Assembly: GCA_002733605.1 (NCBI GenBank)
Contig: NVWK01000013.1
Location: 124,001 to 188,000, forward strand
Direction of reading: 5' to 3'
Source of the DNA: Robiginitomaculum sp.
GTDB lineage: Bacteria; Pseudomonadota; Alphaproteobacteria; Caulobacterales; Maricaulaceae
DNA length: 64,000 bases
In this document: one piece after another, positions 1,254 to 19,716 of the stretch
Layout: each line of letters begins with the position of its first letter
How positions within the stretch are numbered: position 1 is the first letter of the stretch
Notes under the pieces: generated by a model
Told to the model about the DNA's origin: nothing
The model's database searches: none
The model's input: the letters and a program-made list of their open reading frames with translations, nothing else
Made by a program: the position numbers and the translations under genes

Positions 1254-1262
1254 AAGTCCCTC

Positions 1263-4258: not shown

Positions 4259-4314
4259 TGCCGCCACCATAGCGAATCACATGACAAGCCCGCACATTTA
4301 GTCTACCAAAGCCC

Positions 4315-4620: not shown

Positions 4621-4627
4621 ATCTGAG

Positions 4628-4927: not shown

Positions 4928-4933
4928 AGCAAC

Positions 4934-4986: not shown

Positions 4987-5063
4987 TGAACGGCTGAAAT
5001 GAGTGCATCAACACTCACCCCAGCCTAACCACATACGGATCAACCAGTTGAAAGGAATCCGCC

Positions 5064-5264: not shown

Positions 5265-5266
5265 TC

Positions 5267-5593: not shown

Positions 5594-5595
5594 TC

Positions 5596-5856: not shown

Positions 5857-5857
5857 C

Positions 5858-6446: not shown

Positions 6447-6687
6447 CCCTAATCTGGAAATCCCCGAACCAAACACCGTCCCCGCTGTCCACCATATCCG
6501 GGGGAAATAAATCACAATTAAAGATATATTTGAACGCTTCAAGCTCCCGCTCGCTCTCTAATTCGAGCGCCACCGGCGCACTCAGCCCCGCACGATCAAA
6601 CGCCGCCATGACAGTGCCCAGCGCCGCGTATAAATCCATATAATTAGGTGTATCCTTGCCTCTCATAGGCCGGACGGTATAGAACAT
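6433..6687 (-). CDS. Hypothetical protein (84 aa)
   Basis: The frame is open much further upstream, but that part reads through the neighbouring zinc-ribbon gene in another phase. I therefore start at the ATG at 6687, just below that gene's stop. The product (MFYTVRPMRGKDTPNYMDLY, then an Ala/Glu-rich helix and a DGVWFGDFQIRVRTL end) has no recognised domain. It overlaps the convergent gene by 14 bases. The start is uncertain: no good ribosome binding site is visible, and a TTGACA lies about 15 bases upstream. Confidence 0.45.
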   Translation of the reverse strand: MFYTVRPMRGKDTPNYMDLYAALGTVMAAFDRAGLSAPVALELESERELEAFKYIFNCDLFPPDMVDSGDGVWFGDFQIRVRTL

Positions 6688-6706
6688 AGAGAGAACGTTT
6701 GTCAAG

Positions 6707-7092
6707 GATATTAATGGCCAATTTTGCGTGATACTGTGAGGATGTGCGTACCGGGAACCTTCGGTGTACCCGTAATGCGGCCTGATGCAGAATCGATAAC
6801 TATGCCAGCGGGCGGGTCGATTAACGAGTACACCGGTGCATCGGCATCGGCATCGATCTCTCCTATAATCCCCGTCAACCAAACAATTTCTCCACAATGC
6901 ACGCAGTAGTCCCCCCGCCGCCCATCAGATCTAATGTAGTATTTCCCGTCATACTCATGCTCGCATGTAACTTCCTCTCGCTCATTTTGTGTTTTTGAGG
7001 ACAATTTATTTCTCCTTGATCTTGATGCCGGCGGGGCTGGAAGTCTCCACATTAACACATTTGTTAATGCGGTAAAATGATATTAATGGCCA
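6707..7092. repeat. Pair of 14-bp direct repeats flanking a one-gene cassette
   Basis: GATATTAATGGCCA occurs exactly at 6707-6720 and again at 7079-7092, bracketing the zinc-ribbon gene and its presumed promoter. The left copy covers the gene's stop codon. Near the right copy is the inverted repeat CATTAAC (7050-7056) with GTTAATG (7063-7069), a possible operator. Such flanks suggest insertion or exchange of a moron-like cassette by recombination. Confidence 0.55.
6711..7004 (-). CDS. Zinc-ribbon protein with a putative Ig-like (He_PIG) motif
   Basis: I chose a TTG start at 7004 because AAGGAG lies seven bases upstream; the longer ATG at 7058 overlaps an inverted repeat. After a short lead the protein shows CEHEY and CVHCGEIVW, a four-ligand zinc ribbon. 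The C-terminal half, PAGIVIDSASGRITGTP then GTHILTV, fits the putative Ig domain family He_PIG (PAGLxxDxxTGxIxGTP). This combination in 97 residues is unusual. The gene is bounded by exact 14-bp direct repeats. Confidence 0.6.
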   Translation of the reverse strand: MSSKTQNEREEVTCEHEYDGKYYIRSDGRRGDYCVHCGEIVWLTGIIGEIDADADAPVYSLIDPPAGIVIDSASGRITGTPKVPGTHILTVSRKIGH

Positions 7093-7170
7093 CCTATGCA
7101 ATCTACGCTAGGTTTCCCGCTAAATGTTACATGGCAACAGATACGGGCTTCTTGCACAGGTGACCAAGCC

Positions 7171-7761
7171 TTAAAACCCCAAACCGGTTTCCCGCATTCG
7201 GCGACGTAAAAACTTTGGAAACGCCCAAGCCCCCTGCAAATCCGCATGATCCGCATAGCGCTTTATCAATTTCCCATGCTGCAACTGCAGCCCTTCATTG
7301 CCTTCCTCATAAATATCATGCCAGACCATATCCCAATACTTCCCCTTCAGGGGAAATTCAAATGCATCGGCCACATGAATAGTAACACGCGGATCATCTG
7401 CAAACGGGCGCCCAAAATGTTCCGCTATATCAGGATCAATCTCAACCACATCAATATGCTCTATCTCTGGCTTGGTCAGACACATTCGCACAAAGCACCC
7501 CAGCCCCAGCCCCGTCTTTAACACTCGCCCCTTTGCATGATACACCGCCTCGAAATGCCTGCAAATTTCAAATGCACAATCATCCATGACCGTATAACCA
7601 CCATAGCCTTCATCATCGACCCGCTGCAGCCCTGCCATACAAACGTTGAACAAAAACGCACCGCCCAAAATATGCTTTGCATTCATCAACCCGTCCGGGG
7701 ACTTCCACGGCAACAGATCGACCGGCACACGCGCGGCCGCTAAGAGGGCATTAGTGTTCAC
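7171..7761 (-). CDS. Class I SAM-dependent methyltransferase, spermidine-synthase-like
   Basis: The start is taken as GTG at 7761, with AGGGA upstream and overlap with the previous gene's TAA. The longer frame above it reads antiparallel to nothing sensible. Motif I is KTGLGLGCFV, where an acidic residue is usual in place of Thr. The acidic loop is VVEIDPDIAEHF, and DPRVTIHVADAFEF follows with DMVWHDIYE after it, as in spermidine synthase and related folds. The substrate is unknown. It is the last gene of a leftward operon of small phage genes. Confidence 0.7.
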   Translation of the reverse strand: MNTNALLAAARVPVDLLPWKSPDGLMNAKHILGGAFLFNVCMAGLQRVDDEGYGGYTVMDDCAFEICRHFEAVYHAKGRVLKTGLGLGCFVRMCLTKPEIEHIDVVEIDPDIAEHFGRPFADDPRVTIHVADAFEFPLKGKYWDMVWHDIYEEGNEGLQLQHGKLIKRYADHADLQGAWAFPKFLRRRMRETGLGF

Positions 7762-8302
7762 TTTGACATTCCCTGTCACACTGGATGCACGCACCGTCCC
7801 CACAACACACATCACACCAGCCGCAATAATCCACATCATCAACACCAGAGCCACCACACGCCGGACAATCCCCGCTATTCTGGCAATGGTGACAATCTGG
7901 CTGCACACCGGTATTGATACGGGCCAATTGCTGCGCCACCCGTTCAAGGATTTTCCCTGGCATTGCAGATTTGAGATACGTTAAGCGCACTCGATCTGCT
8001 TCTGTAAGGGGTGGCGGCGTAATGATTTTGTTAGTGATAACAAAGCGCACAGGTTCGGCCTTCACAACGTCAACAGGCGCAAAGCCAATCAGCCAAAACA
8101 GCCAGTTCATTCTGGTAGGCCGCGCCGCTCGCCCCGTCCAGGCCGAACTATCCACCCGGAGATCCCAAACATGTGTAACGCTTTCGGAAGGACGGCCCGT
8201 ATCTACCACAAACCAACTCGGGCGAGACACATATTCATTCTCTATATGTTTCACCATCGCAACCGGCGCAAACAAATACTTATTATCTGGCCGCCCTACC
8301 AT
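7751..8302 (-). CDS. Phage protein with C-terminal DnaJ-like cysteine-rich zinc motifs
   Basis: This 183-residue protein has a C-terminal region rich in CxxC pairs: CHHCQNSGDCPACGGSG, then CGWCDVCCGDGACIQC. The CxxCxGxG-type spacing is that of DnaJ-like zinc fingers. The N-terminal 100 residues include a Trp-rich strand region (NWLFWLIGF) and a conserved-looking ITPPPLTEADRVRLTYL. It overlaps the genes on both sides. It is probably a metal-binding phage accessory factor; the function is unknown. Confidence 0.6.
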   Translation of the reverse strand: MVGRPDNKYLFAPVAMVKHIENEYVSRPSWFVVDTGRPSESVTHVWDLRVDSSAWTGRAARPTRMNWLFWLIGFAPVDVVKAEPVRFVITNKIITPPPLTEADRVRLTYLKSAMPGKILERVAQQLARINTGVQPDCHHCQNSGDCPACGGSGVDDVDYCGWCDVCCGDGACIQCDRECQSEH

Positions 8303-8730
8303 TTGATCAAAACCCCTCTGAAGGCAATTGGCGCATCAGCCACAAAGAACTCATAAAACGCATCTGCATTGGTAAACCCGTCCGCATATGCCAACGCCAC
8401 AACGGCTTCATCTGACAGACAAGGCCCAGTTTTAGGATCGCCCAAAATAACGCCACGCTTGCCCCAGGGCGCTTCTGAATAAATCGTAATAGGTGACACA
8501 GACAAGCAATCTATAAGCCCTAAGCGCTTTCGGGCAGCCGTCCGGCTTTTCCACCAAAGATGCAAAGCATCCCCCGGTTTCACCCGGGCATAGGGCGAAC
8601 GTGGGTTTCCATCAAATTTACGAATTGTCTGGCACTTGGTTCGCCCAAAGCCACCAGCAGGGCCATGCTTCTCAGCAACCCCCGCCTCAATCATCGGCCT
8701 CATCTCATCCATTGAAAACGATAACAGCAT
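8296..8730 (-). CDS. ASCH/PUA-like domain protein
   Basis: The product begins MLLSFSMDEMRPMIEAG and has KCQTIRKFDGNP, then HLWWKSRT, TIYSEAP and finally FRGVLIKW. This order (phage-type LSFxxxMxxxIxxGxKxQTIR start, TxW-like middle, GxLIxW end) is that of ASCH-fold proteins, which bind RNA or modified nucleotides. Its ATG overlaps the upstream stop at 8730, and its end overlaps the next gene by 7 bases. Role in the phage is unknown. Confidence 0.65.
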   Translation of the reverse strand: MLLSFSMDEMRPMIEAGVAEKHGPAGGFGRTKCQTIRKFDGNPRSPYARVKPGDALHLWWKSRTAARKRLGLIDCLSVSPITIYSEAPWGKRGVILGDPKTGPCLSDEAVVALAYADGFTNADAFYEFFVADAPIAFRGVLIKW

Positions 8731-9116
8731 TACTTGCCCTCCTGTAGAGCTTTACGGATTTCTATATCCACAGCTAAATCAAGATGCTCCTCATTCAGCA
8801 CCACGTTTTCAGGCGTCATGCCCGCAAATACACCGCCGACACTGATTTTATCTAAGTCCACATTTCGCAAATATTGGTACCTACTGGCATAAAGCTCCAA
8901 CTCATCATGGTCTCTAACGAACCGGGTCGGCCCATTTTGCAACGGTGTGTCGATGTCTAGGGCGGACATACAGGAATGCGATTTTACCCGTACCTCAAAC
9001 CCCAGCCGGTTAAGCTCATTAAATAGGCCAAGACCACGATCAATGCTGTCCCCGAAACTCAACGTTTCAGCGTTAGACAAGGCCCTCCCCATTCGTGATG
9101 CATAAACATTATCCAT
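8730..9116 (-). CDS. Hypothetical phage protein (128 aa)
   Basis: The gene lies between a Lys-rich small protein and the ASCH-like gene, with a 1-base overlap at its 3' end and AGGAGG just before its start. The protein (MDNVYASRMGRALSNAETLS, later GLFNELNRLGFEVRVKSHSC) looks globular, with no membrane segment. No family was recognised. Confidence 0.6.
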   Translation of the reverse strand: MDNVYASRMGRALSNAETLSFGDSIDRGLGLFNELNRLGFEVRVKSHSCMSALDIDTPLQNGPTRFVRDHDELELYASRYQYLRNVDLDKISVGGVFAGMTPENVVLNEEHLDLAVDIEIRKALQEGK

Positions 9117-9125
9117 ATCACCCTC

Positions 9126-9482
9126 CTAAAATGGACACGGATTGGCTGCATGATCCAGCCGCTTAAACACTTCACGGCTCGATTGTGCGACCGTTATGTC
9201 TTCTACATGTTTTGTAAAAATGCTCGTTTGCGGGACACATAAATCACAATCCATTGACGGATGTATTCCCAGTATTTCGCTTGGCCTTAAATAAATCGGC
9301 GCAAAATCCCCACACGTAATCCGCTCATCCAATAAGACAAACCCGTTATCCTCCGCACGTTTCACAGCGTCATAGGAGGAAAGCTTTGCCTCCCGCGCCA
9401 CTTTAGCCTCCTGCACCAGTGCCGAGTTTTCCGCCTTGGTCAGTTTCCGTGCCGGCTTTGCCTTCACATTCGTTTTAGCCAT
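9126..9482 (-). CDS. Hypothetical phage protein (118 aa)
   Basis: I chose the ATG at 9482, preceded by AAGGAG at ideal spacing. The frame continues upstream, but those codons (SWIPAFAGM) are only the translation of a dispersed palindromic repeat. The product has an Ala/Lys-rich N-terminus (MAKTNVKAKPARKLTKAENS) and a CGDFAPIYLRPSEIL segment with several cysteines. No domain was recognised. It is followed 10 bases later by the next gene. Confidence 0.6.
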   Translation of the reverse strand: MAKTNVKAKPARKLTKAENSALVQEAKVAREAKLSSYDAVKRAEDNGFVLLDERITCGDFAPIYLRPSEILGIHPSMDCDLCVPQTSIFTKHVEDITVAQSSREVFKRLDHAANPCPF

Positions 9483-9504
9483 AATCTTCTCCTTTTTCCC
9501 GCTC

Positions 9505-9524
9505 ATCCCCGCGAAGGCGGGGAT
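9505..9524. repeat. Dispersed palindromic repeat (SWIPAFAGM type)
   Basis: ATCCCCGC-GAAG-GCGGGGAT forms an 8-bp stem with a 4-base loop and is flanked by CTC and CCAGC. The extended word, when translated, gives the well-known spurious peptide SWIPAFAGM seen across many proteobacterial and rickettsial genomes. It lies in the leader of the gene starting at 9482. Confidence 0.7.
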
Positions 9525-9545
9525 CCAGCTCATGTATTAAAAAAT

Positions 9546-9609
9546 GCCCTTTGAAGGTCAGACTTTCGACCTTTTGCTGGCGGGATTAGCGCCAATTCCC
9601 TCAAAGGGC
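9546..9609 (-). ncRNA. Candidate three-way-junction RNA followed by a U-run
   Basis: A perfect 9-bp closing stem, GCCCTTTGA (9546-9554) with TCAAAGGGC (9601-9609), encloses two hairpins: AGGTC/GACCT (9555-9559 with 9568-9572) and TGGCG/CGCCA (9578-9582 with 9590-9594). Read on the minus strand, with the surrounding genes, the closing stem is followed by ATTTTTTAAT. It could therefore be a terminator or a riboswitch-like leader for the gene at 9482. I could not match it to a known class. Confidence 0.5.
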
Positions 9610-9657
9610 GGTACAATGCCACTCCCATAATTTATGGTTGTGTTAGCAAGAGCAGCA

Positions 9658-9840
9658 CTATTCTTTTGTTTTCCGGTCGCGCTTCCTGGCGATATCCAAC
9701 CGCCGCGCCGCCCGATCCCGATTTACAAAATCCACCGGCCGCCGATCTTTCCCCTCACACATCTTCGTATACCGATCCAGCTCGGCCCGCAGCCGTGCGA
9801 TCTCGAGCGCTTTGTATGTGGCTGGAGGTGTCGGGGCCAT
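9658..9840 (-). CDS. Small basic phage protein (60 aa)
   Basis: A short, charged, helical product (YKALEIARLRAELDRYTKMC, ending RRLDIARKRDRKTKE). It begins 5 bases after the stop of the P-loop gene on the same strand. The heptad-like Leu/Ile spacing suggests a coiled coil. The family is unknown. Confidence 0.5.
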   Translation of the reverse strand: MAPTPPATYKALEIARLRAELDRYTKMCEGKDRRPVDFVNRDRAARRLDIARKRDRKTKE

Positions 9841-9845
9841 GATCT

Positions 9846-10100
9846 TTACCCCGGTCGCCCCGGCTTAAATTTGAACGGCTTTATGCCAATCAATTTGGCA
9901 ACATCTTCAAAATTATAGATTGTCGCGACCGAGTTTTGGTGATCATAGACTGAATGAGCCAGCGCCAAATCCCCATCCTTCAAAACCTGCCGACCGTCAA
10001 AATCGTCAACAATACGCTTAGCTTTAAAGTGCTTTTTTAATGCCTCTTTGTGGTGCGTTTTCCCGCAAGCCATTGGCCCTATAATGATCGTAATACTCAT
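9846..10100 (-). CDS. Small P-loop NTPase (84 aa)
   Basis: The N-terminus MSITIIIGPMACGKTHH is a beta strand followed by a Walker A loop. It is followed by KRIVDDFDGRQVLKDGDLAL, whose Asp-Asp pair could act as Walker B. At 84 residues it is a minimal nucleotide-binding protein of a kind often seen beside phage replication genes. AAGGAG precedes the ATG. It lies 18 bases downstream of the helicase gene in the same transcript. The substrate is unknown. Confidence 0.65.
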   Translation of the reverse strand: MSITIIIGPMACGKTHHKEALKKHFKAKRIVDDFDGRQVLKDGDLALAHSVYDHQNSVATIYNFEDVAKLIGIKPFKFKPGRPG

Positions 10101-10118
10101 AATTTTCTCCTTTTCTGC

Positions 10119-11969
10119 CTAATCGAAATTCATAAATTCACGGATATGGATTTTGTGGCCGTGCTTGCTCGCGCCCAGGACTTTCGCCTTGTCGACCATG
10201 GCCACACGTTCCGGGGCCTGGCTAAGTGTCTCATGCCACACGCCCTGGGCCGCCCCCGTCGATCTCCACACAGATTGCGCGAACAAGGCTGAAAGCTGGG
10301 CGTGATTAGCCGGCACAAAAAGGTAAGCATTTTCAAAATTATGAATATTTTTACCGAACACCAAAGAACATCCGATCTCGCCCAGCTTGCGCCGGCATTT
10401 CCCGAGATTTTTATCCTCGCCGTCATTGACAAATTCGCGGTGCAGCACCGCCCGCACTGTCGAAACAGGTGTATTGCGCCAGGCGTCGACCGTCGTATCG
10501 AGCAGATGATTTAGACACCCCTCCCAGTTACGGATCGAGCCGCTATAATCATTTTCAAGCTGTTCACGCACGCGCCGTACCCAGTGTTCGATCTGGTCGG
10601 GACGCGCCGGGCCGTCACATGTCAAAATATGATGCGCCGCGATTAATGACCCGTATTGATCCCCGCCCCGGCTATCCAATCCGCAGCCTTCGATCAACGC
10701 CTTGCGGTAGGCATAGAAAACATCACTATAAAGCGGCCACCCGTCCATCATCCGCCGTAAAACTTGCTGCCCGACACGCTTTAACTTCGTCCCGTCTATG
10801 TTCGGCCCGCCCGATATATCGACAATTGGATTTAACGACAGCATGGTAATCCGAGATCGATCTTGCGGTTTTAAAGCCGGCACATTAATCGCGCTCATTA
10901 AAAAACACGATCTAAGCGTAAACTCGACCCCTTTATGCTCGGCCCCGCCGCGCAAAGCTTTACCACCCGAGCTGGAAATACGCGCCAGCTCCAAAACCTT
11001 TTGCGTCGCCCGATCATCAGCTTCAGCTTCCAGCTCATCGATAGCCACCGCAATCGTATCATTCTTCAAGGCCTGATAAATACCGGCCGCCGTCGTATCG
11101 GCCGCCATAATCAACCCGTCCCCCATCACATGGCCAACCAAGGCCTGTAAGGTCGATTTACCCGTCCCGCGCTCGCCGGTCATAAAGACATGCGGCCGCC
11201 AGGGCAGCGCCCCGCCCAAAAACGCACACCCGATCCAGCCCAACAACATATCCGCGTCAAAATGGCCGCGCTTCCAATTCCACGTCTCCAACATATCAAG
11301 CAAATGCGAGATCAACCCATTCCCTGAAGGCAAAACCGGATCAGGCCATGGCTCTAGTGCAGCCGGTCGCCCCGGATACAAATATTTCCCGATTTCCCCG
11401 GTCGGGTACTTACTTTCGAAATTCTCCACATAAACCCAACGCCCGGAATTATAGACCAGCTTGAAATGCTCATTTAAATGCGCCCCCCGCCCCTTCACCT
11501 TATCCATCGGGTTCCAGGCCCCTTTACGGCCGCACGCCTCGATCATGGCCCGTTCGGTAACTTCCGCATTAAACCGCCCCGGATCGGATTTTGACGGCAA
11601 TGGCCACGCCCACGCTAAGTAATTATTGCGGGTGATAAACAAATTGACGATGACTTTTTTACCGCCCCGGGTCGACGATATTGTCCCGATTGTCCCCACT
11701 GGTGTCAGGAAATATTTTATATCGTCGTCATAGCCCAGCGGCGTTACCGGGCATTCGGGCGGCAATCCCAACATATCGGGTTCCCAATCCCCCGGCGAAT
11801 ACATCCGCTTTTTAATCAATTTATCGTCGCCCGGAATTGGATCCGCATACAGGGTCGTATTTATTTGTTCGGCTTCTCCCAGCGCCCCCGCCATTTCCTC
11901 CCGGCTCGCCTCATGTTGCATTCCCGGTCGCGCTCCCGCGCTCCCGGCCTCTTGATGTGTCCCCGTCAT
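10119..11969 (-). CDS. Phage D5-like helicase/ATPase for replication
   Basis: The protein has 616 residues from the ATG at 11969, which overlaps the primase stop as ATGA; a longer frame adds nine codons without support. The C-terminal half contains MTGERGTGKSTLQAL (Walker A), VAIDELEAEAD (Walker B) and later FLMSAINVPAL and DRSRITMLSL, as in SF3/D5-type or DUF927-like phage helicases. It is expected to unwind DNA with the adjacent primase. The N-terminal 200 residues are of unknown fold. Confidence 0.75.
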   Translation of the reverse strand: MTGTHQEAGSAGARPGMQHEASREEMAGALGEAEQINTTLYADPIPGDDKLIKKRMYSPGDWEPDMLGLPPECPVTPLGYDDDIKYFLTPVGTIGTISSTRGGKKVIVNLFITRNNYLAWAWPLPSKSDPGRFNAEVTERAMIEACGRKGAWNPMDKVKGRGAHLNEHFKLVYNSGRWVYVENFESKYPTGEIGKYLYPGRPAALEPWPDPVLPSGNGLISHLLDMLETWNWKRGHFDADMLLGWIGCAFLGGALPWRPHVFMTGERGTGKSTLQALVGHVMGDGLIMAADTTAAGIYQALKNDTIAVAIDELEAEADDRATQKVLELARISSSGGKALRGGAEHKGVEFTLRSCFLMSAINVPALKPQDRSRITMLSLNPIVDISGGPNIDGTKLKRVGQQVLRRMMDGWPLYSDVFYAYRKALIEGCGLDSRGGDQYGSLIAAHHILTCDGPARPDQIEHWVRRVREQLENDYSGSIRNWEGCLNHLLDTTVDAWRNTPVSTVRAVLHREFVNDGEDKNLGKCRRKLGEIGCSLVFGKNIHNFENAYLFVPANHAQLSALFAQSVWRSTGAAQGVWHETLSQAPERVAMVDKAKVLGASKHGHKIHIREFMNFD

Positions 11970-13153
11970 GCCGCAATCCTTGTAAACTGGCCACACAGCC
12001 AGGCATTCATATCTTTTGTTCCAATTGGGGCCCGGAACGCTTTCAGCACCCGCTCCAATTCAGCCACATGCGCTTGCTTCGCATAATGAACCTTCGCCGC
12101 CTCGAACGCTTCCAGCGCCTCCTCCGCGTCGTCATTATCCCCGATCAAAATAATCTCCCGGGCACAGTCCGGCCAATCCATAGCCCTGAAATTTCCCACA
12201 TCCCCGACAACCCATACGCGCCAATCCGGCCGCAAAATCGCGACCGTCAGCCCGTCCTCAATGCCTTCGATCAAACACAAAGGCGCAAACTGCCCCTTGG
12301 CAATCGCCTGTTTCTCGGTCAGCTGGCCTTCGCCCCGCGCCAAGCGGATCACAGATCCCTTTTTGTCGCCGCGCATTTTTTTAGGCTTCGGCACATCGGC
12401 CTTGCCGTGCCCACCCTTGGCCAAATATGTCCGGTGCACACACGTAATATCATTGGCCGCACTGACCATTGCCGACACGATGCACGGGTGTTGGGTGTAA
12501 AATCGCTTGATAATCCCGTCAAAAACCATCCCGTGCAGATCATTTAACCGGTCATATTCTTCCCTGGGCAGATCCCCGTAATAATAACGTGCGCTGGGCG
12601 AGTACCGGAGCGCCCCGGGCTGGCGGGCAAGTTTACGCAAATCAATCTTGCGCTCCCCGAAATATATATCCGCGTCCGTATCGATCACCCCGGCCTTTGC
12701 CGACAACCATGTACCCTTTGCATTAAATGGCCTGGACGTAGTGGGGGCGGCTGTCTTGCGGGTCGGGGCCGCGCCCATGCGTTTAGCTGTCCCGGACGCC
12801 TCCCCTAGTGTGATCCCAAGCCAGCGCTCGGCCCAGCCCATGACATCGCCAAACTCTGCCGGCAGCCGCCAACCTTTGACATAGGCAATGAACTGGAATA
12901 TATCCCCCTCATCCCCGGTGGCCTTGTCACACCACGCCCCGCAATACGGGCCTTTGACCGCAATATAAAATGACCCGACGGAACGATCTGCACGGGTCGG
13001 GTTGAGCGCGAAATAATTATCACCATCAACCCCGCCGCCCCGTTCACAGTCCGGCGCAAGCGTCCGCGCCAACGCCAAGGCCCGCCCCTTCAGAGCCTCC
13101 TTGACGCGATCACGGTGCGCTTTGTCCTGAAACCTATCCCGTGGGGCACTCAT
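11966..13153 (-). CDS. Phage DNA primase with Toprim domain
   Basis: The protein has 395 residues. Its N-terminal region (RALALARTLAPDCERGGGVD, then CGAWCDKATGDEGDIFQFIA) resembles the zinc-binding part of phage primases. The Toprim domain shows LIEGIEDGLTVA (catalytic Glu) and IILIGDNDDAEEA (the DxD motif). It synthesises RNA primers or starts replication with the D5-like helicase. It overlaps the methyltransferase upstream and the helicase downstream by ATGA junctions. Confidence 0.8.
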   Translation of the reverse strand: MSAPRDRFQDKAHRDRVKEALKGRALALARTLAPDCERGGGVDGDNYFALNPTRADRSVGSFYIAVKGPYCGAWCDKATGDEGDIFQFIAYVKGWRLPAEFGDVMGWAERWLGITLGEASGTAKRMGAAPTRKTAAPTTSRPFNAKGTWLSAKAGVIDTDADIYFGERKIDLRKLARQPGALRYSPSARYYYGDLPREEYDRLNDLHGMVFDGIIKRFYTQHPCIVSAMVSAANDITCVHRTYLAKGGHGKADVPKPKKMRGDKKGSVIRLARGEGQLTEKQAIAKGQFAPLCLIEGIEDGLTVAILRPDWRVWVVGDVGNFRAMDWPDCAREIILIGDNDDAEEALEAFEAAKVHYAKQAHVAELERVLKAFRAPIGTKDMNAWLCGQFTRIAA

Positions 13154-13884
13154 TTTAATGGCCCCAACACCGGCCCAGGCCCCGCAAAGCGTTTCGCATC
13201 ATCTGGATGAGTAAGTTCGGTGTGGGCCGCATACGGCACGTGCACACCTTCCCAATTGCGGCGCGCACGGTTGTGCATCGGCGTCCACACATACCAGGCA
13301 TAACCTGTCATGGTGGTTTTCACCGGATCCCAACCGCCCTTGACCATGCACGGCCGGTAGGCAAAAGTCCCCATGCCCCGAAACCGCAGATCATGATAAA
13401 AATCTTCCCGGCCTTCAGAGTTAATCGCTTCCAGTTTGAAGATCATAGCCACAATCGACACCTGATATGTCAGCACCTCCCGGATAAACTCTGCCAAGAC
13501 TGGCCCGAATGGCGGATTGGTAAATATACAATCTTTTTCAGACAAAGCCGGCGCAGGGTCCGCATTCAGGAGCGGCGCCGTAAAATCAAAACTGTTTTGA
13601 TCCGAATATCCATAATTGTGCAAATCTGTCGCATGGACACTATAGCCCTCATCGCGCAGCACTTGCGCCATATGGCCCCCGCCGCACGCCGGCTCCCATA
13701 TCTTGCTCGTCTCTGGTCTCCACGGCGTAATGGGATCATTCCCGATCAAGCCCGGTAACACATATTTCAACAAAACCCGGGTCGCCCACGGCGGCGTCGC
13801 AAACAGTTGAGGACTGTCTGCAGGTTCGATCCGCCGGTTTTGCGAGACTTCAAGCTTCGAACCTCTTTTTGGCAAACCACTCAT
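13150..13884 (-). CDS. Phage DNA methyltransferase, NPPF type
   Basis: This 244-residue protein has motif I as WEPACGGGHMAQVL, an acidic loop HATDLHNYGY and the catalytic motif FTNPPFGP, the (D/N)PP(Y/F) signature of DNA N6-adenine or N4-cytosine methyltransferases. No target recognition domain can be named. Methylation of the phage genome probably protects it from host restriction or marks regulatory sites. The flanking overlaps, 13881-13884 and 13150-13153, are both ATGA. Confidence 0.75.
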   Translation of the reverse strand: MSGLPKRGSKLEVSQNRRIEPADSPQLFATPPWATRVLLKYVLPGLIGNDPITPWRPETSKIWEPACGGGHMAQVLRDEGYSVHATDLHNYGYSDQNSFDFTAPLLNADPAPALSEKDCIFTNPPFGPVLAEFIREVLTYQVSIVAMIFKLEAINSEGREDFYHDLRFRGMGTFAYRPCMVKGGWDPVKTTMTGYAWYVWTPMHNRARRNWEGVHVPYAAHTELTHPDDAKRFAGPGPVLGPLK

Positions 13885-14207
13885 ACGGACAACATTTTCG
13901 GCAAACCAAACTCGGCCCGGGCCCGAACTTCTGCGCCCGCAAGCGCGACGTCGATAACATCCAGTTCATCCCGCAAATCTGTAACCTTGCCCAACCAATA
14001 TCCAATTTTCGTATGATTAATCCCGGCCAGCTTTGCGATCTGGTTTTGCGGGATCTGCAAGCTGATATGCATAAGATAGATACAGACGTGCAGGGCCGTT
14101 GACTTGGAGGCAGCTCGCCCGCCCGGCAATGCCAGCGCAAACCGGCATCCGACCACATCGGCCGCCAACCCCGTACAAAAATACAAATGTGCGTGTGTGC
14201 CCTTCAT
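13881..14207 (-). CDS. DnaA domain IV-like DNA-binding protein
   Basis: Residues around 38-85 (ALHVCIYLMHISLQIPQNQI, then AKLAGINHTKIGYWLGKVTD) follow the layout of the DnaA C-terminal HTH: an alanine-rich helix, a short LP-type turn, then a G-x-(D/N)-H-T-x-(V/I) recognition motif. No AAA+ domain is present. Such stand-alone DnaA-box-binding-like proteins occur in alphaproteobacterial phages. Together with the adjacent replication genes this suggests a role in origin recognition or interference with host DnaA. Confidence 0.55.
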   Translation of the reverse strand: MKGTHAHLYFCTGLAADVVGCRFALALPGGRAASKSTALHVCIYLMHISLQIPQNQIAKLAGINHTKIGYWLGKVTDLRDELDVIDVALAGAEVRARAEFGLPKMLSV

Positions 14208-14548
14208 TGGAGATCCCGCCTTGGTTTGACCCAGTCTTTATCCGGCATCACCAACCCTTGCGCCAAATCCGTTGTCGGCGTCCGTGCCGGCACGTCTTCC
14301 AACTTCAAGATCAGATCCCGCAAATACCCAGCCCATATGCGCCGCCAGGCATCACTATCGTTTTCGCAAAATATCCGCGCCGCAACATAGACCGCCCTGC
14401 GTAACAGCGGCTCCGCACCATCGGCCGCAAATTTTTCCTGAGTGACAAGTGCCAATGTGTCGCGCAGTGCCGAGACGGTAAATGTCTTGTAGGGCGTCGC
14501 GGCCGCCTCACTGATAAGCCCCTGCAATACGGTCACGGTCGAAATCAT
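14204..14548 (-). CDS. Hypothetical early phage protein (114 aa)
   Basis: I start at the ATG at 14548, whose ATGA overlaps the stop of the Cro-like gene. The frame extends 34 codons further, but inside that gene. The product is helical (TVTVLQGLISEAAATPYKTF, later RRAVYVAARIFCENDSDAWRR) with no recognised domain. It is coupled by another ATGA to the DnaA-like gene downstream. Confidence 0.6.
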   Translation of the reverse strand: MISTVTVLQGLISEAAATPYKTFTVSALRDTLALVTQEKFAADGAEPLLRRAVYVAARIFCENDSDAWRRIWAGYLRDLILKLEDVPARTPTTDLAQGLVMPDKDWVKPRRDLQ

Positions 14549-14853
14549 GACGCACCACCCACATCTTCCATCCGGCCAGCAATCAGCTTCATCGAATTTA
14601 CAGGGTTGGCTTTGGCATATTCCCATGTCGGGCGGGCCATGTCCGACCACAACACCGGCAGGCCCAACTCCTGCGCCCGATCATAAATTTTTCTGAAATG
14701 TTTTTGCGGGATATGAAAGCGCCAATTGCGAACCGTTTCCGACTTCAGGCCCAGGGCTTTACAAAACGCCACCCGGCCGCCAAACTTGTCATATACGATC
14801 ACCGGCGACCAGATTTCCGGCACATCATCCCCTGTTTTTTTCGCATTTACCAT
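14545..14853 (-). CDS. Cro-like / YdaS-type HTH regulator, first gene of the early operon
   Basis: The segment YDKFGGRVAFCKALGLKSET, followed by VRNWRFHIPQKHFRKIYDRA, is a Cro/YdaS-type helix-turn-helix with the characteristic W-x-x-x-x-IP and a following helix. It starts leftward, directly opposite the CI-type repressor, with repeated TGTTTATT words in the intervening region. By position it is the counterpart of cro: the early regulator that represses the lysogenic repressor promoter. Confidence 0.7.
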   Translation of the reverse strand: MVNAKKTGDDVPEIWSPVIVYDKFGGRVAFCKALGLKSETVRNWRFHIPQKHFRKIYDRAQELGLPVLWSDMARPTWEYAKANPVNSMKLIAGRMEDVGGAS

Positions 14854-14870
14854 TGAAACCGCTCATAAAT

Positions 14871-14966
14871 TGTTTATTTAATGTTTATTAACGGTTTTTT
14901 TACATGAAGTGATTCGCGGTATTTGTAAATGCTAAAAACAAAAAAAATGCATATTTGTATAAACAT
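14871..14966. promoter_or_regulatory. Operator-like repeats between the Cro-like and CI-like genes
   Basis: TGTTTATT occurs at 14871-14878 and 14882-14889, 11 bp apart. The word ATAAACAT (reverse complement of ATGTTTAT) recurs at 14881-14888 (minus), 14959-14966 (plus) and again past the repressor gene at 15627-15634. The region is very AT-rich and sits where both divergent promoters must lie. Confidence 0.5.
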
Positions 14967-15549
14967 GCTTACTCATCACGATATAAAGGTGAAGCTTAAA
15001 CAGCTACGCCGCACACAAGGGGAACTCGGTGAAGCCATCGGCATGCCCTATCATACAATCAACAGAACCGTAAACGGCGAGCGCGTCCTTCGCGCCACCG
15101 AAATGATCAAGATCGAGGCCCAGCTCGAACTTTGGGAAACTGCATTCACCCCACACGCGGGCGGCCGCACCAAAGAAGTCGATCGCATCCCGTTCTACAC
15201 AACGCCCAGCGCCGACAATACAGCCGTAAACCTCGGCAAAAGCGCGGTAATAGAGCTTGTGAAAGCCCACCCCAGTCAAGACACAGACCAGCGCCCCTTC
15301 GCGGTACGCATCGCAAATGATCTTATGTCCCCACGTTTCGAACCGGGCGAAACTGCCTACATTGCCCGCATCATGCCGCGCCGTTATGACGACTGCCTGA
15401 TCGAACGCACAGACGGCACGGCCGTCGTGTGTCGCTACACCATGCAGAAAGACGGCATGGTTTTTTGCGAACAACTCAACCCTGAAACAGAACTCCGCTT
15501 CCCGGCAAAAGACGTTATCGCCGTGCATAAAGTGGTCGGGCGAGGGTAA
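14965..15549 (+). CDS. CI-type repressor with a LexA/S24-like fold lacking the catalytic dyad
   Basis: An N-terminal HTH (KVKLKQLRRTQGELGEAIGM, then HTINRTVNGERV) is followed by a LexA-like C-terminal domain (FAVRIANDLMSPRFEPGE, YIARIMPRRYDDC, and so on). Where cleavable repressors have Ser-Met after the Asp (DSM), this protein has DLM. Where the general-base lysine is expected (VxVKR), it has VVCRY. Self-cleavage is therefore unlikely. I chose the ATG at 14965; ATGs at 14929 and 14947 are in frame, but the extra codons are A-rich and no ribosome binding site is visible for any of them. Confidence 0.7.
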   Translation: MLTHHDIKVKLKQLRRTQGELGEAIGMPYHTINRTVNGERVLRATEMIKIEAQLELWETAFTPHAGGRTKEVDRIPFYTTPSADNTAVNLGKSAVIELVKAHPSQDTDQRPFAVRIANDLMSPRFEPGETAYIARIMPRRYDDCLIERTDGTAVVCRYTMQKDGMVFCEQLNPETELRFPAKDVIAVHKVVGRG

Positions 15550-15569
15550 TTACACACGAAAATAACAAA

Positions 15570-15585
15570 TGTTTCACGTGAAACA
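15570..15585. other. parS: Perfect parS site (ParB binding) in the phage element
   Basis: TGTTTCACGTGAAACA matches the bacterial chromosomal parS consensus at all 16 positions. It lies 20 bases after the repressor stop, in a non-coding stretch, so it is not a by-product of coding sequence. ParB proteins load and spread from this site. A second perfect copy lies in valS in the flanking chromosome (59497-59512). Confidence 0.85.
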
Positions 15586-15618
15586 ATCCCTTTTTTAAAC
15601 AATATTTACACAGTTTTT

Positions 15619-15646
15619 AAACATTTATAAACATTTATCATTGACA
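15619..15646 (+). promoter_or_regulatory. Tandem operator-like repeats and a -35 box before the AlpA-like gene
   Basis: Two adjacent copies of AAACATTTAT (15619-15628 and 15629-15638) are followed directly by TTGACA (15641-15646). The -10 box is not clear. The repeats share ATAAACAT with the sites beyond the other end of the repressor gene, so the same repressor may bind on both sides. Confidence 0.45.
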
Positions 15647-15694
15647 CTCTTGCATTAGCTGTGCAATCCCTTGGCTCAACCAAGGAGATTAACC

Positions 15695-16063
15695 ATGCTA
15701 AATCCGGCCAATCGCACCCCGCGACCTGCCCCACACTTCCCCCCCAGCCTTAGCATGAGCAAAGCTGCTCGATTGATCGGCATTGGCTACGCCTCCTTTT
15801 CAAATCAAGTTGCGGACATGATTGCCGATGAAGGCTTCCCCAAAGCCTATATCGGCACGCCCGGCCGGCACGGCACACACCGTCGCTGGCACCGCGTCGC
15901 CGTTGAGGATTGGATGCGTGATCGAAGTTCACGCAGTTCATGCCCAACCTCAACGGCGCGCGACCAACCAACACCACAACTTCAAGCTAACAACTTGCTG
16001 GACATCCATCATGGCGACAATTCCATCATAACCCTGCGGATCGAAGATCTGCGCTATTCATAG
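15695..16063 (+). CDS. AlpA/excisionase-like HTH protein
   Basis: The ATG at 15695 has AAGGAG upstream. Residues around 20-70 (SMSKAARLIGIGYASFSNQV, then RRWHRVAVEDWM) form a MerR/AlpA-type winged HTH with the terminal W-x-V-x-x-W-(M/L) motif that marks excisionases and AlpA-like regulators. The C-terminal 50 residues are low in structure. On the element's integrase side, such a protein commonly directs excision or regulates the integrase. Confidence 0.6.
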   Translation: MLNPANRTPRPAPHFPPSLSMSKAARLIGIGYASFSNQVADMIADEGFPKAYIGTPGRHGTHRRWHRVAVEDWMRDRSSRSSCPTSTARDQPTPQLQANNLLDIHHGDNSIITLRIEDLRYS

Positions 16064-16072
16064 GAGAGACAC

Positions 16073-16441
16073 ATGCCACCAATGTTAGGCATAAAAAAAA
16101 TTGAAGGACCTCGTATCACAGAACAACAAGTGATCATGCGCGACCTTATTGGCACGGCCCAAAACGAACTCGGTAAAACCGTCAGTAAAAGCGTGACGGC
16201 CGCCCAGTGCGTTTTTGACGACAAGACTACATTTGAATTTTCGATATCACTTCAAAATTCACTCGCGATCCATATGGCAATGGGCATAGCAACCACTATG
16301 CACGTAGCCAGCGGTGAAAATTTGCAGAAATGCATAGATGAGGTCTCGCGCATATTTGTCGAAACATTTGCCGCAACCACAAAGGAAAAATTCGCAAAAG
16401 AACTTAGAGAGGAGAAACCCAGTGGCACCTTCAAGCACTGA
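16073..16441 (+). CDS. Hypothetical protein (122 aa)
   Basis: A clear AGGAG precedes the ATG. The protein has a helical centre (MAMGIATTMHVASGENLQKC) and a basic C-terminus (FAKELREEKPSGTFKH). There is no signal peptide and no recognised domain. Its end overlaps the next gene's GTG start by 20 bases, so the two are likely co-translated. Confidence 0.55.
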   Translation: MPPMLGIKKIEGPRITEQQVIMRDLIGTAQNELGKTVSKSVTAAQCVFDDKTTFEFSISLQNSLAIHMAMGIATTMHVASGENLQKCIDEVSRIFVETFAATTKEKFAKELREEKPSGTFKH

Positions 16442-16730
16442 GTCCAACAATTTCATTGACCATATGAGTGATAAACTCATTGAAAGCGGCAAGCCAATTG
16501 CCGGCGGCTGGCTTTTATTTGTTAAAGTTGCGGATCTGGATGAACATAGTAAAGCCCAGCGAAAAGAAATGCATCAAGCATACTTTACGGGCGCACAGCA
16601 CACATTCGCTATGATGATGCACGGCCTGTCAGACGGTGAAGAAATTACAGAAACAGACCTCAAGCGCATGGACAACATCGCAAATGAACTGGCTGAATTT
16701 GCAGCCGAAATGAAGATAAAAGGAGCCTAA
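16422..16730 (+). CDS. Hypothetical protein (102 aa), GTG start
   Basis: I chose the GTG at 16422, which has GAGAGGAG about seven bases upstream; the earlier ATG in this frame lies deep inside the previous gene. The product (for example KPIAGGWLLFVKVADLDEHS, later TFAMMMHGLSDGEEITETDL) is acidic with amphipathic helices. No family was recognised. Confidence 0.55.
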   Translation: MAPSSTESNNFIDHMSDKLIESGKPIAGGWLLFVKVADLDEHSKAQRKEMHQAYFTGAQHTFAMMMHGLSDGEEITETDLKRMDNIANELAEFAAEMKIKGA

Positions 16731-16731
16731 A

Positions 16732-17148
16732 ATGGCACAATACGACCCCCGCAAACCACACACGATTGACACACATGTCGGCTCACAAATCCGCACCCGC
16801 CGGGTAGCCCTCAAAATGAGCCAGGAAAAACTTGGCGGTAAAGTTGGTGTCTCATTCCAGCAAGTCCAGAAATACGAGCGCGGCCAAAACCGCGTTGGGG
16901 CGAGCCGCCTTTTCTACATGTCGAAAGCCCTCGAAGTCCCTGTCAGTTTCTTCTACAACGGGCTAGAGACCGAAGGCCAAACACCGACACAGGAAACCAC
17001 AGATACACTGCAAAGTTTCATCCAGTCTCCGGAAGGCCTTCGCATGGCCCGCGCCTTCAACAAGATCAAACTGGCAATCACCCGTAACAGCGTCATTGAC
17101 ATGATTGAGAACATTGCCGAAGTCACCGATCCGGCCGCAACATCATGA
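16732..17148 (+). CDS. XRE-family transcriptional regulator (138 aa)
   Basis: The HTH VGSQIRTRRVALKMSQEKLG, then GKVGVSFQQVQKYERGQNRV, is the alphaproteobacterial type of Cro/CI regulator (G-x-x-(I/L)-R-x-x-R-x-x-x-x-x-S-Q). AAGGAG precedes the ATG. After the HTH come a VSFFYNGL segment and a helical tail, as in many chromosomal homologues. It may control the lysogeny-side genes 15695-19487. Its stop overlaps the next start as ATGA. Confidence 0.8.
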   Translation: MAQYDPRKPHTIDTHVGSQIRTRRVALKMSQEKLGGKVGVSFQQVQKYERGQNRVGASRLFYMSKALEVPVSFFYNGLETEGQTPTQETTDTLQSFIQSPEGLRMARAFNKIKLAITRNSVIDMIENIAEVTDPAATS

Positions 17149-17453
17149 ACCAGATCATAGAATTTGAAGATACCGGGCAAGATTTTTTAAAGTGGATTGT
17201 TTCGCCAACAGGTGAAGTTCTGGACTGCGTGCCATTTCAAGCTTGGTTGTGGTGCGAAAAGAAAGTTGTAGCGACACAGTTCAATAAGGCTGGCAAGCTA
17301 GTTCTTGTTCTACTCGACCCGGAAACGAAAGAGGAGATGGTACTAAAACACGCCATCACATCTATCCGCACCACAAACAAGTCCCAATTCCATGCGCCTA
17401 AAAAGGCCGCGAAAATCCCAACAGGCTTGACGGCCGCGCAAGCCCGGTCATAG
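17145..17453 (+). CDS. Hypothetical phage protein (102 aa)
   Basis: The ATG overlaps the XRE gene stop (ATGA at 17145-17148). The product has several beta-strand segments (KWIVSPTGEVLDCVPFQAWL, KLVLVLLDPETKEEMVL) and a Lys/Ala-rich tail. No recognised family. The next gene is the integrase, after 43 bases. Confidence 0.55.
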   Translation: MNQIIEFEDTGQDFLKWIVSPTGEVLDCVPFQAWLWCEKKVVATQFNKAGKLVLVLLDPETKEEMVLKHAITSIRTTNKSQFHAPKKAAKIPTGLTAAQARS

Positions 17454-17496
17454 ACTGGGCACGTCGCACCCCTGATTTGCTTCCCACGAGCTTACC

Positions 17497-18813
17497 ATGA
17501 CCACACTCAAAGCCCCCTATTTCGAACCCCGTCTTCGCAAAGACGGAGAAACCCTGTGCCGGTTCACCGCGTCGCCCAAGCTCCGAAAGCTCGGATTTGT
17601 CACCTTTGACTATTACACGGACGGGCCGCCCCTAGAGCCGCACGAGGCCCAAGAGCTGGGCTTCGCACCCTCGACCACGCAAAACCTCCCCTTCACCCAC
17701 CCTGGGCGACTGATGAGCGTGGGCGAAGCGGTTGCGGCCGCACACATCGTCGCCAAGATGATCGAACACCAACTCGACAACCCGCAAGACGAAACCGACA
17801 TACGCCTTCACGCCCAGGCCAAGCCCATGAATATCGATCATCTCCTCGATGATTATTTCGAAACGGAAGAATTTAACAACCTCGCCCCCAAAACCCAGCT
17901 CGGCTATAAAAGCTGGGCCGTCCTCATCCGTAAATATTTTGGCGATCAACGCCCGAAAGCCCTGGATGAGATCTCGATCATCGAAACCTATTGGGCCGCC
18001 CGCAATTCTCGCGGCGAACGACTGGCCTATGGGGCCGTACAAATATTACGCATTGTCTACAAATGGGGCCGCTCCCGTTCGCGCAAATGGAAACATCATG
18101 CGCCGGGCATTGAATGGTCAGGCCTCAAAATCCCCACACCCAAGCCCCGTGTCCGGGTTGGCACTGACGAAGAACTGGACGCCATCATGCTTGCGGCCGA
18201 AAACCCGCTTAAAATTCACCAGCTCACAGGCGCGAAGATCAACGAGAAGCGCCCGTCCGAACTTCTCCCCCGCCCAAGCCTTGCGGACGCCCTTATGATC
18301 GCTCTGTGGACAGCACAGCGCCAAACAGACATTCTCCTGCTCACCAGCCCCAACCTGTCCCGGGGCCGCTGTGCGCTCCAACAGAGCAAAGGCGGCAAAT
18401 TTGTCTCCGTCCCGCTTATGGATCCCCTCAAGCAAAGGATCGCAGAACTCAAACGCCGCAAGATGCAGCGCGGCTGGGGCGACCGGCCACAAATCATTTT
18501 AACCGATGTCAACGGCATTCCCTACCAAACCAAGGCCGCCACCAATACCACCTTCAGTTCCTATTTCTGCCGGGTTCGCAATCTCGCGGCCGAGATATGC
18601 CCGTCCGTCGCAGACTTCCAGTTCCGCGATCTGCGCGATACAGCCCTCACACGCCTGGGCGCTGCGGGTTGCGACATATGGGAAATCATCAGTTGGAGCG
18701 GCCACAATCCCGACACCGCCATGCAAGTCATAAAACACTACATGGCCATAGACCAATCCTTCGCCGACCGCGCCGGCGAAAAACTCGCCAAACACCTCGC
18801 CAAAGGCCACTGA
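17497..18813 (+). CDS. int: Tyrosine-family phage integrase
   Basis: The protein has 438 residues. A core-binding helical domain (about residues 105-210) precedes the catalytic domain. Catalytic landmarks are LWTAQRQTDIL (first Arg), the Lys in QQSKGGKFVSVPL, FRDLRDTALTRLGAAG (box II, with the common F-R-D-L-R form instead of H-x-x-R), ISWSGHNPDTA (second His) and KHYMA (nucleophile Tyr). It carries out site-specific recombination at the adjacent tRNA-Lys. It sits at the tRNA-proximal end of the element, as usual for tRNA-targeted integrases. Confidence 0.92.
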   Translation: MTTLKAPYFEPRLRKDGETLCRFTASPKLRKLGFVTFDYYTDGPPLEPHEAQELGFAPSTTQNLPFTHPGRLMSVGEAVAAAHIVAKMIEHQLDNPQDETDIRLHAQAKPMNIDHLLDDYFETEEFNNLAPKTQLGYKSWAVLIRKYFGDQRPKALDEISIIETYWAARNSRGERLAYGAVQILRIVYKWGRSRSRKWKHHAPGIEWSGLKIPTPKPRVRVGTDEELDAIMLAAENPLKIHQLTGAKINEKRPSELLPRPSLADALMIALWTAQRQTDILLLTSPNLSRGRCALQQSKGGKFVSVPLMDPLKQRIAELKRRKMQRGWGDRPQIILTDVNGIPYQTKAATNTTFSSYFCRVRNLAAEICPSVADFQFRDLRDTALTRLGAAGCDIWEIISWSGHNPDTAMQVIKHYMAIDQSFADRAGEKLAKHLAKGH

Positions 18814-18814
18814 T

Positions 18815-19138
18815 ATGCCTAACAACATAATCAATAAAGATTTCGGGAAAACAGATCGCGAATCCGCACGTAAGCTTAGAGAGCTGCTCGGCATTATTGA
18901 AGCCTTCGAGGCGGACATGATCGCCAACCCTGTAAAGTATTTTAATCTTGCCAGGCAAGAAATCGAAAGCTTACAACGAAAACTCCTAGCACTGAAAGTT
19001 GCGGCATGGCCCAGATTTGACGAACAATTTATTGAGCCAGATGCCGCCTGTGAACCAGAGCCTATAAAAACAGTCCGCATTCAGCAAGAAGACTACAATT
19101 GTCTTCAAGCCTTGAGAAAGCAACTCAATGACAAATGA
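18815..19138 (+). CDS. Hypothetical protein downstream of the integrase (107 aa)
   Basis: It starts one base after the integrase stop. The product is charged and helical (SARKLRELLGIIEAFEADMI, later NLARQEIESLQRKLLALKV), with coiled-coil potential and an acidic, proline-containing section. No domain was recognised. It overlaps the following gene by 11 bases. Confidence 0.5.
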   Translation: MPNNIINKDFGKTDRESARKLRELLGIIEAFEADMIANPVKYFNLARQEIESLQRKLLALKVAAWPRFDEQFIEPDAACEPEPIKTVRIQQEDYNCLQALRKQLNDK

Positions 19139-19487
19139 TATGGATGAACCTAAATATTATCGAGGGTCATACTTGGCAGGTAGATCATCTGCCGTTCGGG
19201 CATGCATTGCAGCCGAAAAGGGCCGTAAGGTAGCGTATGTAGTCAACAGTATTTCGCACGCAATGCGGGCCTTAATTCAGGCCTCTGCCTTTGTGAGCGA
19301 ACACACACATATAGAACCGGAAATTGATTTTCTCGGCTTACAAATAAATTATCCGTCCAGGGGGCGAGTTAAACTCGTAACGCCAAACGACCAGGAGCGA
19401 CAGATATCCTGGGCCTATGACGAATGCCACGATGAACTGACAGTAATACCCAAAAGAGCACTCTCACCCGTAAAATTACACTACTGA
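19128..19487 (+). CDS. Hypothetical protein, last gene before the attachment site (119 aa)
   Basis: The start is either 19128 or the ATG at 19140. The product (YRGSYLAGRSSAVRACIAAE, later EIDFLGLQINYPSRGRVKLV) looks globular and soluble, with no recognised domain. It is followed by a strong palindromic terminator. Base use is more AT-rich than in the integrase gene. Confidence 0.5.
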   Translation: MTNDMDEPKYYRGSYLAGRSSAVRACIAAEKGRKVAYVVNSISHAMRALIQASAFVSEHTHIEPEIDFLGLQINYPSRGRVKLVTPNDQERQISWAYDECHDELTVIPKRALSPVKLHY

Positions 19488-19513
19488 TCCGGGTGTATTT
19501 TCACAGTTTCCAA

Positions 19514-19543
19514 TGAAAAGGGGGCCAATTGGCCCCCTTTTCA
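19514..19543. terminator. 30-bp perfect palindrome, bidirectional intrinsic terminator
   Basis: The palindrome runs TGAAAAGGGGGCCAA and its exact complement, giving an eight-pair GC-rich stem flanked by A and T tracts on either strand. It closes the integrase-side operon and would also stop transcription arriving from the tRNA side. Confidence 0.8.
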
Positions 19544-19584
19544 TGCGACGTGCGACGAATTGCAACGTCGCATGTCCGTCGCAC
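19542..19584. repeat. Four TGCGACG-type repeats near the attachment site
   Basis: TGCGACG occurs at 19544-19550 and 19551-19557, and its complement CGTCGCA at 19566-19572 and 19577-19583. They form two alternative inverted repeats: CATGCGACGT (19542-19551) with ACGTCGCATG (19565-19574), and GTGCGACG (19550-19557) with CGTCGCAC (19577-19584). They lie 60-100 bp from the tRNA 3' end, where integrase arm-type sites are expected. Confidence 0.5.
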
Positions 19585-19640
19585 ACGCATTTATGTTTAC
19601 GTGTTTTGCAGTCTAAACATATGAAATATCAGTAAAAGTA

Positions 19641-19716
19641 TGGTGAGCTGTCAGGGATTCGAACCCTGGACCTACTGATTAAAAGTCAGTTGCTCTACCA
19701 ACTGAGCTAACAGCTC
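19641..19716 (-). tRNA. tRNA-Lys (anticodon UUU), probable att site
   Basis: The cloverleaf is complete on the minus strand: acceptor GAGCTGT/ACAGCTC, D-arm TAGCTCAGTTGGTAGAGC, anticodon arm ACTGA-CTTTTAA-TCAGT with anticodon TTT, T-arm with GGTTCGAATCC, discriminator A and an encoded CCA. The 3' end faces the phage element, so the integrase probably recombines in the 3' half and leaves the gene intact. The matching second att copy is outside the window. Confidence 0.97.

Follow-up and report, generated by a model that had tools for sequence, protein, structure and literature searches.

Introduction

Phage P1 persists as an extrachromosomal prophage with a phage-encoded ParABS system, and some other elements mimic the dif site and borrow the host XerCD. 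Chromosomal ParABS systems use parS sites with a 16-bp consensus (Livny et al. 2007, as cited in an excerpt of PMC10197239); when ParB binds parS together with CTP, it forms a closed clamp and spreads (excerpt of PMC12704722). Mycobacteriophage RedRock contains its own parA and parB genes and repeated 8-bp parS motifs, and has no integrase (excerpt of PMC7157519), and the Staphylococcus phage Lacachita encodes ParB without ParA (excerpt of PMC10286716). A survey of titles and abstracts, with Livny et al. 2007 outside its scope, yielded no recognisable report of an orphan host-type parS on phages, and "parS" is absent as a whole word from PMC13386836.

Compared with the parS of chromosomal ParABS systems, the site described here has the identical 16 bp, the same palindrome and a canonical host ParB; it differs in being located on a mobile element, as a single copy, next to a phage repressor and outside the ori cluster. 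Dif-mimicking elements are similar in that a short copy of a host chromosome-maintenance site would recruit a host protein, for integration in their case and presumably for segregation or anchoring in this one. The marking of phage DNA by a centromere-like site is shared with the ParABS systems of P1 and RedRock. The prophage differs from RedRock, as described in the excerpt of PMC7157519, in lacking ParB and in having a host-type site together with an integrase. With Lacachita, as far as the excerpt of PMC10286716 describes it, the common feature is an incomplete partition system on a phage (compare also the related elements L290 and L293, below); however, Lacachita has the ParB-like gene, whereas the opposite half, a site without the protein, is found here.

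Results

Extent and gene content of the prophage

The window, i.e. the whole stretch of DNA analysed (64,000 bp), corresponds to positions 124001–188000 of contig C8 of the host genome G000 (3.07 Mb, 14 contigs). A 53-bp exact repeat of the 3′ end of a tRNA-Lys gene was identified at window positions 19639–19691 and at C8:113739–113791. This duplication at both ends delimits a prophage of 29,953 bp (C8:113739–143691), complete on one contig. The part of the element to the left of the window contains endolysin, tail and major head genes. The features within the window are as follows (window coordinates).

1–19691, no strand: part of the prophage inside the window (whole element C8:113739–143691, 29,953 bp)
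10119–11996, minus strand: phage primase/helicase-like protein (phrog_21086, E 2e-61; phrog_35358 DNA primase, E 1e-44)
11966–13153, minus strand: Toprim primase (Toprim_3 and DUF7146)
14871–14887, no strand: two copies of TGTTTA, putative operators, in the divergent gap upstream of the repressor gene (TAAACA also at 14960–14965)
14968–15549, plus strand: CI/S24-type phage repressor (phrog_4 transcriptional repressor, E 2e-10; Pfam HTH_3, E 7e-4, below the cut-off)
15570–15585, no strand: orphan parS, TGTTTCACGTGAAACA, exact match (6e-6 to 9e-6 copies expected in the element)
15592–15633, no strand: operator-like repeats (TTTTTAAACA twice, TAAACA three times) between parS and the AlpA-like gene, putatively bound by the repressor
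15695–16063, plus strand: AlpA-like small HTH protein, likely an excisionase or regulator (phrog_668 HTH DNA-binding protein, E 2e-6)
16732–17148, plus strand: second HTH regulator (HTH_3, E 4e-11)
17497–18813, plus strand: tyrosine integrase (phrog_1, E 2e-22; Phage_integrase, PF00589)
19639–19691, no strand: att copy, 53 bp, identical to C8:113739–113791, 10.3 kb to the left of the window
19641–19716, minus strand: tRNA-Lys (TTT), the integration target (tRNA gene call)

The repressor ORF opens at 14929, and 14968 is the start chosen here. The AlpA-like protein has no Pfam match, its name being that of the initial annotation; its gene holds the same position as the excisionase-like gene (phrog_66) of the related element L285 (see below). 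A terminase identity for 1263–2768 was not retained, as the name had been given by reading alone and neither a Pfam nor a PHROG match was obtained. A perfect 32-bp palindrome is present at 19513–19544, in the interval that separates the att site from the last phage gene.

A profile search of G000 detected no ParB_N domain on contig C8, the sole two matches in the genome being located on C6 and C2. The host ParA and ParB proteins gave no tblastn match on the element at E 0.01 (a search by similarity to the host proteins rather than with a ParA profile). The absence of parB, initially noted together with that of parA for the part of the element within the window, extends to the complete element, in which these searches detected no parA and parB pair such as a phage-encoded ParABS would require. 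Neither is it an extrachromosomal prophage without an integrase, since it has both an integrase and the 53-bp att duplication.

The parS site of the prophage

The sequence TGTTTCACGTGAAACA at 15570–15585 matches the 16-bp chromosomal parS consensus at 16/16 positions and is a perfect palindrome, one of six of at least 14 bp in the element. A second exact copy is located in the window at 59497–59512, inside an ORF of 910 aa that reads as valyl-tRNA synthetase (valS; name by reading). The initial annotation had described an exact 16-mer in non-coding DNA just after the repressor gene, the same as the valS copy and very unlikely to occur by chance. Both copies are indeed exact and the prophage site is intergenic, and Markov models gave an expectation of 6e-6 to 9e-6, i.e. 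about 1e-5, exact copies in the whole element. In the dinucleotide-shuffled window the mean number of parS matches at up to three mismatches was 0.2. The flanks of the prophage site share at most 17/40 letters with those of host parS sites; being unlike those of any host site, they indicate that it was not recently copied in with host sequence.

parS sites and ParB of the host genome

G000 holds 12 exact parS sites; two more sites have one mismatch and a single one has two. Four of the exact sites form one cluster on C6 together with parAB, mnmG and mnmE-like genes (names by reading), six are located in or beside genes on C2, C7, C9, C12 and C13, and the rest are the valS and prophage copies. 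Seven host sites thus lie outside C6, five inside core-gene-like ORFs (glyS, xseA, sufD, trpE and valS) and two beside genes (by reading). The dispersed sites in or beside glyS-, xseA-, sufD-, trpE- and rluC-like genes (L006, L007, L009–L012) make up an unusually scattered set. Exact parS was found in 34 of the 40 other genomes searched, none of which reaches the number in G000. The congeners G013 and G009 (L315–L322) share parS sites in the xseA- and sufD-like genes or at the rluC-like gene; since these dispersed sites are common to congeners, some are old host sites, and the lineage keeps dispersed sites.

The chromosomal ParB of the host (ParB_N at C6:159423, E 1.4e-32) is canonical, matching the chromosome-partitioning protein ParB of PDB entry 6t1f (E 4e-66). 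Two properties of a chromosomal-type parS can be compared on this basis: a cognate ParB is present in the same cell, and location in the ori/parAB cluster does not apply, as the cluster is on C6 and the prophage site on C8. A second, short-frame ParB_N match was observed at C2:312187–312381, away from the prophage.

The gap between the repressor and AlpA-like genes

The repressor stop codon is followed by 20 bp, parS, 109 bp and the ATG of the AlpA-like gene. The operator-like repeats that had been reported beyond parS are real, with TTTTTAAACA at 15592 and 15614. Of the 24 TGTTTA/TAAACA hexamers of the element, six fall within two stretches around the repressor gene, three in each. These repeats are the likely operators of the repressor, judging from their sequence and placement, and parS is separate from and unlike them: a repressor operator should recur in both gaps flanking the repressor gene, and it is TGTTTA/TAAACA that is repeated there, parS being present once. 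The site was accordingly rejected as an operator, the likely operators having a different sequence.

An intrinsic terminator, defined by a GC-containing stem-loop with a close T run, was not called at parS. The hairpin that the site may form is weak (6-bp stem, −4.7 kcal/mol), with a T run beginning 5 nt after the palindrome, and a terminator function was likewise rejected. No sigma-70-type promoter was called in the repressor–AlpA gap.

parS in related prophages

Relatives of the prophage were sampled by their primase, regardless of parS. The primase was matched in 11 others among 397 genomes of the order and in 7 among 384 of the class, one of these with two matches. Sixteen stretches were taken from these 19 matches, the three weakest (G382, G495 and G800) being omitted; contig ends truncate L285, L288 and L292. 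A host-type parS (TGTTYCACGTGRAACA, exact to the pattern) was found in 3/16 of these stretches, compared with about 8e-5 expected: the site of L285 is exact, that of L281 is TGTTCCACGTGGAACA and that of L283 is TGTTTCACGTGGAACA. The other 13/16 have no host-type parS, which shows that the trait is recurrent, not general. None was detected in nine further primase relatives from IMG/VR and GTDB contigs (L150 of this set overlaps with L280; L147 and L155 agree in length and in match positions but not in every letter).

The arrangement in L285 is a repressor-like ORF, 0 bp, parS, 96 bp, an excisionase-like HTH gene (phrog_66) and an integrase. Its parS flanks are unrelated to those in the window (13/40 identical). 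The repressor-like ORF has no family match and aligns with the phrog_4 repressor of L283 (E 1e-7, single comparison). In L281, the distance to parS from the S24 repressor before it is about 390 bp, and a GapR-domain gene follows the site after 81 bp; parS also falls within the opening codons of an opposite ORF, given the start that was called. GapR-domain genes were observed beside or near parS-like sites in phage-like DNA in L281 (8994–9263, Pfam) and L325 (1482–1760, sequence resemblance only).

The parS of L283 is placed between a partial tRNA-Pro-like sequence and the 3′ end of the integrase gene. ARAGORN called no tRNA at this partial sequence; a whole tRNA-Pro of different sequence is located 10.8 kb further on, and no perfect att repeat was detected, the longest shared repeat being 18 bp. 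With no tRNA called at the partial copy and no perfect att repeat, the boundary of the element is unproven, and its parS is likely, from the sequence context, to lie inside it. The initial annotation had proposed a search of related prophages for a conserved parS at the same spot: L285 (96 versus 109 bp to the AlpA-like gene) agrees with this placement, L281 and L283 do so more loosely, and the other 13/16 relatives are without the site.

Another element in the genome of L285, L313, has TGTTCCACGTGGAACA between a repressor-like ORF and an integrase; as it was found by the parS pattern, it stands outside the 3/16 count and is not an independent test. Apart from the L285 and L313 sites, G270 has no perfect match to the Y/R consensus, and its C32 cluster consists of six one-mismatch sites. 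G276 and G287 have one ParB_N match each, at the ori cluster, and G270 has an additional sub-cut-off match on another contig, C17; all confident ParB matches in the hosts of L285, L281 and L283 are chromosomal. The G287 parS is on the opposite flank of the integrase, and one further Y/R site is present in this genome beside pyrG- and secG-like genes (by reading), i.e. in host DNA.

Two of the relatives without parS, L290 and L293 (both in G648), encode their own ParB, which shows that partition proteins are not foreign to this phage group; the ParB-like genes are near the integrase (L290, 6722–7303; L293, 5241–5789). Parts of L150/L280 and L152 that resemble parS with 2 to 4 mismatches were not counted: those of L150 are degenerate, and that of L152 belongs to a longer palindrome centred elsewhere. 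Such palindromes or repeats, similar to parS yet distinct from it, were seen in the lysogeny regions of L152 (near 2970) and L150 (1465–1543) and are perhaps operators or drifted parS.

The repressor, used as query against INPHARED phages, viral contigs and the genus, had no relative besides the window itself, and the integrase gave three distant matches besides its own in 99 family genomes; neither search found a close copy of this element. The L285 integrase was found in three others among 62 genomes of its family, namely G287, G182 and, as a fragment, G403; the G182 and G403 loci contain no parS-like site at up to three mismatches.

Orphan parS in viral sequences

Analysis of IMG/VR revealed exact parS in at least 120 stretches (at least 146 sites), compared with 0 and 2 stretches for control palindromes of equal composition. 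A tagged subsample contained 20 matches with exact parS, which, multiplied by 128, corresponds to roughly 2,500 viral stretches if TGCA occurs at 1/256 on either side. Among the matches listed, 63/146 sites are located outside crudely called ORFs, compared with 9.7% of windows. The host ParA, ParB, mnmG, mnmE and rsmG gave no match at E 1e-6 in the 120 stretches listed (the positive control worked); with no matches to genes of the ori cluster, there is no sign that these stretches are ori fragments.

ParB_N was detected in 4/50 whole parS-bearing viral records tested from among the matches listed, three of them over the cut-off. More than one parS-like site (up to two mismatches) is present in 27/120 listed stretches, the maximum being 12 (L107), and six permuted palindromes gave 0 or 1 match each in the same 120 stretches (1.05 Mb). 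Arrays were noted in L107 (8906–13878, 12 sites), L136 (117–2405, 6), L037 (2657–3444, 5) and L064 (10535–11462, 5), and the whole records of these four have no ParB_N.

HMMs built from the integrase, repressor and AlpA-like sets of this study matched 1 of 140 parS-bearing viral stretches listed; these models being too narrow, proteins flanking the sites were scanned with PHROGs instead. Of 136 proteins flanking viral parS outside ORFs (120 listed plus 20 tagged stretches), 128 were scanned. Terminase family phrog_38 leads with 18/128, and no repressor or integrase family is among the 25 commonest PHROG families of this set. Among the matches listed, parS lies 17–135 bp upstream of one TerL family in 11 stretches (L039, L047, L049, L062, L086, L103, L113, L117, L121, L139 and L140). 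Conservation of this arrangement across the terminase family was not borne out: TerL-sampled relatives not already selected by parS have the exact site in 2/57 cases, and one more has it with one mismatch. This count sets aside 15 rows already selected by parS and 8 with less than 150 bp upstream; L184 and L194 are also outside it, being on contigs already selected by parS (L113 and L117). The site upstream of TerL is clade-limited or often lost.

Discussion

The explanation that we favour, on balance, is that the site is a phage-owned orphan parS that would recruit the host chromosomal ParB, with segregation or anchoring of phage DNA in its unintegrated state as the most likely purpose. The initial annotation had suggested that an element with a host-type parS but lacking a ParB gene would rely on the host protein, and this view is now well supported, the complete element having been checked and prophages of other genera being alike. 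It had named three uses, any of which may apply: segregation when excised, placement near the origin, and regulation of the nearby repressor and AlpA-like promoters. Given the CTP-clamp behaviour of ParB, the host protein should load on phage DNA. It would close at the phage parS and slide over adjoining sequence, and the unintegrated phage genome could become cargo of host ParA/ParB, possibly also of SMC, between entry and integration and again following excision. The phage would most probably gain in that its circular DNA stays tethered to the nucleoid or ori focus and passes to both daughter cells, at no cost for a parA and parB of its own. In the lysogen, a patch of ParB over the repressor–AlpA gap may also damp the integrase operon.

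In favour of segregation, parS recurs in the repressor–integrase region of some related prophages in other hosts. Against it count the facts that an integrated prophage needs no partition and that the unintegrated period may be short; that, with dispersed parS sites abundant in the host lineage, selection might in this case act on the host side; and that the position of parS differs among phages. Such variable positions, together with the arrays and the ParB-bearing relatives, do fit with segregation or anchoring.

This explanation ranks above regulation, which is the main rival and which we consider unlikely. In a regulatory role, ParB located between the repressor and the AlpA-like/integrase operon would repress or insulate the operon and make the lysogeny switch dependent on host ParB or on the cell cycle. 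The distances of parS upstream of the AlpA-like gene, similar in the window and in L285, agree with this, as do the L313 site between repressor-like ORF and integrase and the L281 site downstream of a repressor. There is also a precedent in P. aeruginosa, where ParB with intergenic parS3/parS4 represses PA0011/PA0013; however, the same source (excerpt of PMC7022226) reports that loss of Spo0J in B. subtilis left parS-adjacent genes unchanged. Furthermore, no promoter was called in the gap, the G287 site is on the other side of the integrase, and the commonest identified neighbour of viral parS is a terminase, which a promoter-specific role does not predict, with repressors and integrases missing from the 25 commonest families. 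A simpler local function, that of a coincidental operator or terminator of the repressor gene, is suggested by the palindrome just after the gene, its 6-bp stem and the T run that follows. We regard this as the least probable account of all, because no terminator was called, the likely operators differ in sequence and exact parS identity recurs in L285.

It is improbable, though better founded than such a coincidence, that the site is a chromosomal parS of the host lineage that lies in the prophage by chance and serves the host origin domain rather than the phage. The number of exact sites in G000 exceeds that of each of the 40 relatives searched, and dispersed sites at xseA-, sufD- and rluC-like genes are common to congeners, but the prophage flanks resemble no host site, and no dispersed host pattern explains the exact Y/R matches of G276 and G270, which lie outside the ori cluster in prophage-like DNA. 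Very little likelihood attaches to a decoy that titrates or redirects ParB/SMC in infection and disturbs the host cycle: a single site against 11 host sites would hardly titrate ParB here, even if arrays of up to 12 parS-like sites exist on some viral contigs among the matches listed.

Whether orphan parS is a widespread viral strategy is, in our judgement, evenly balanced. Perhaps a few thousand viral contigs would carry it, singly or in arrays and mostly without ParB (in the 50 records tested), and the DNA of many different kinds of phage would be handled by the host segregation machinery ("viral centromere mimicry").

A parS site distant from the origin may mark a prophage rather than an origin domain, which calls for caution. 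The presence of parS in some related viruses of other hosts suggests that phages borrow the host segregation machinery. If this is true, the bacterial centromere would not be a tool of the host alone, and viruses without partition genes would use it by means of 16 bp. This could tie the lysogeny switch to the loading of ParB, and could help to explain how integrating phages survive cell division before integration or after excision.
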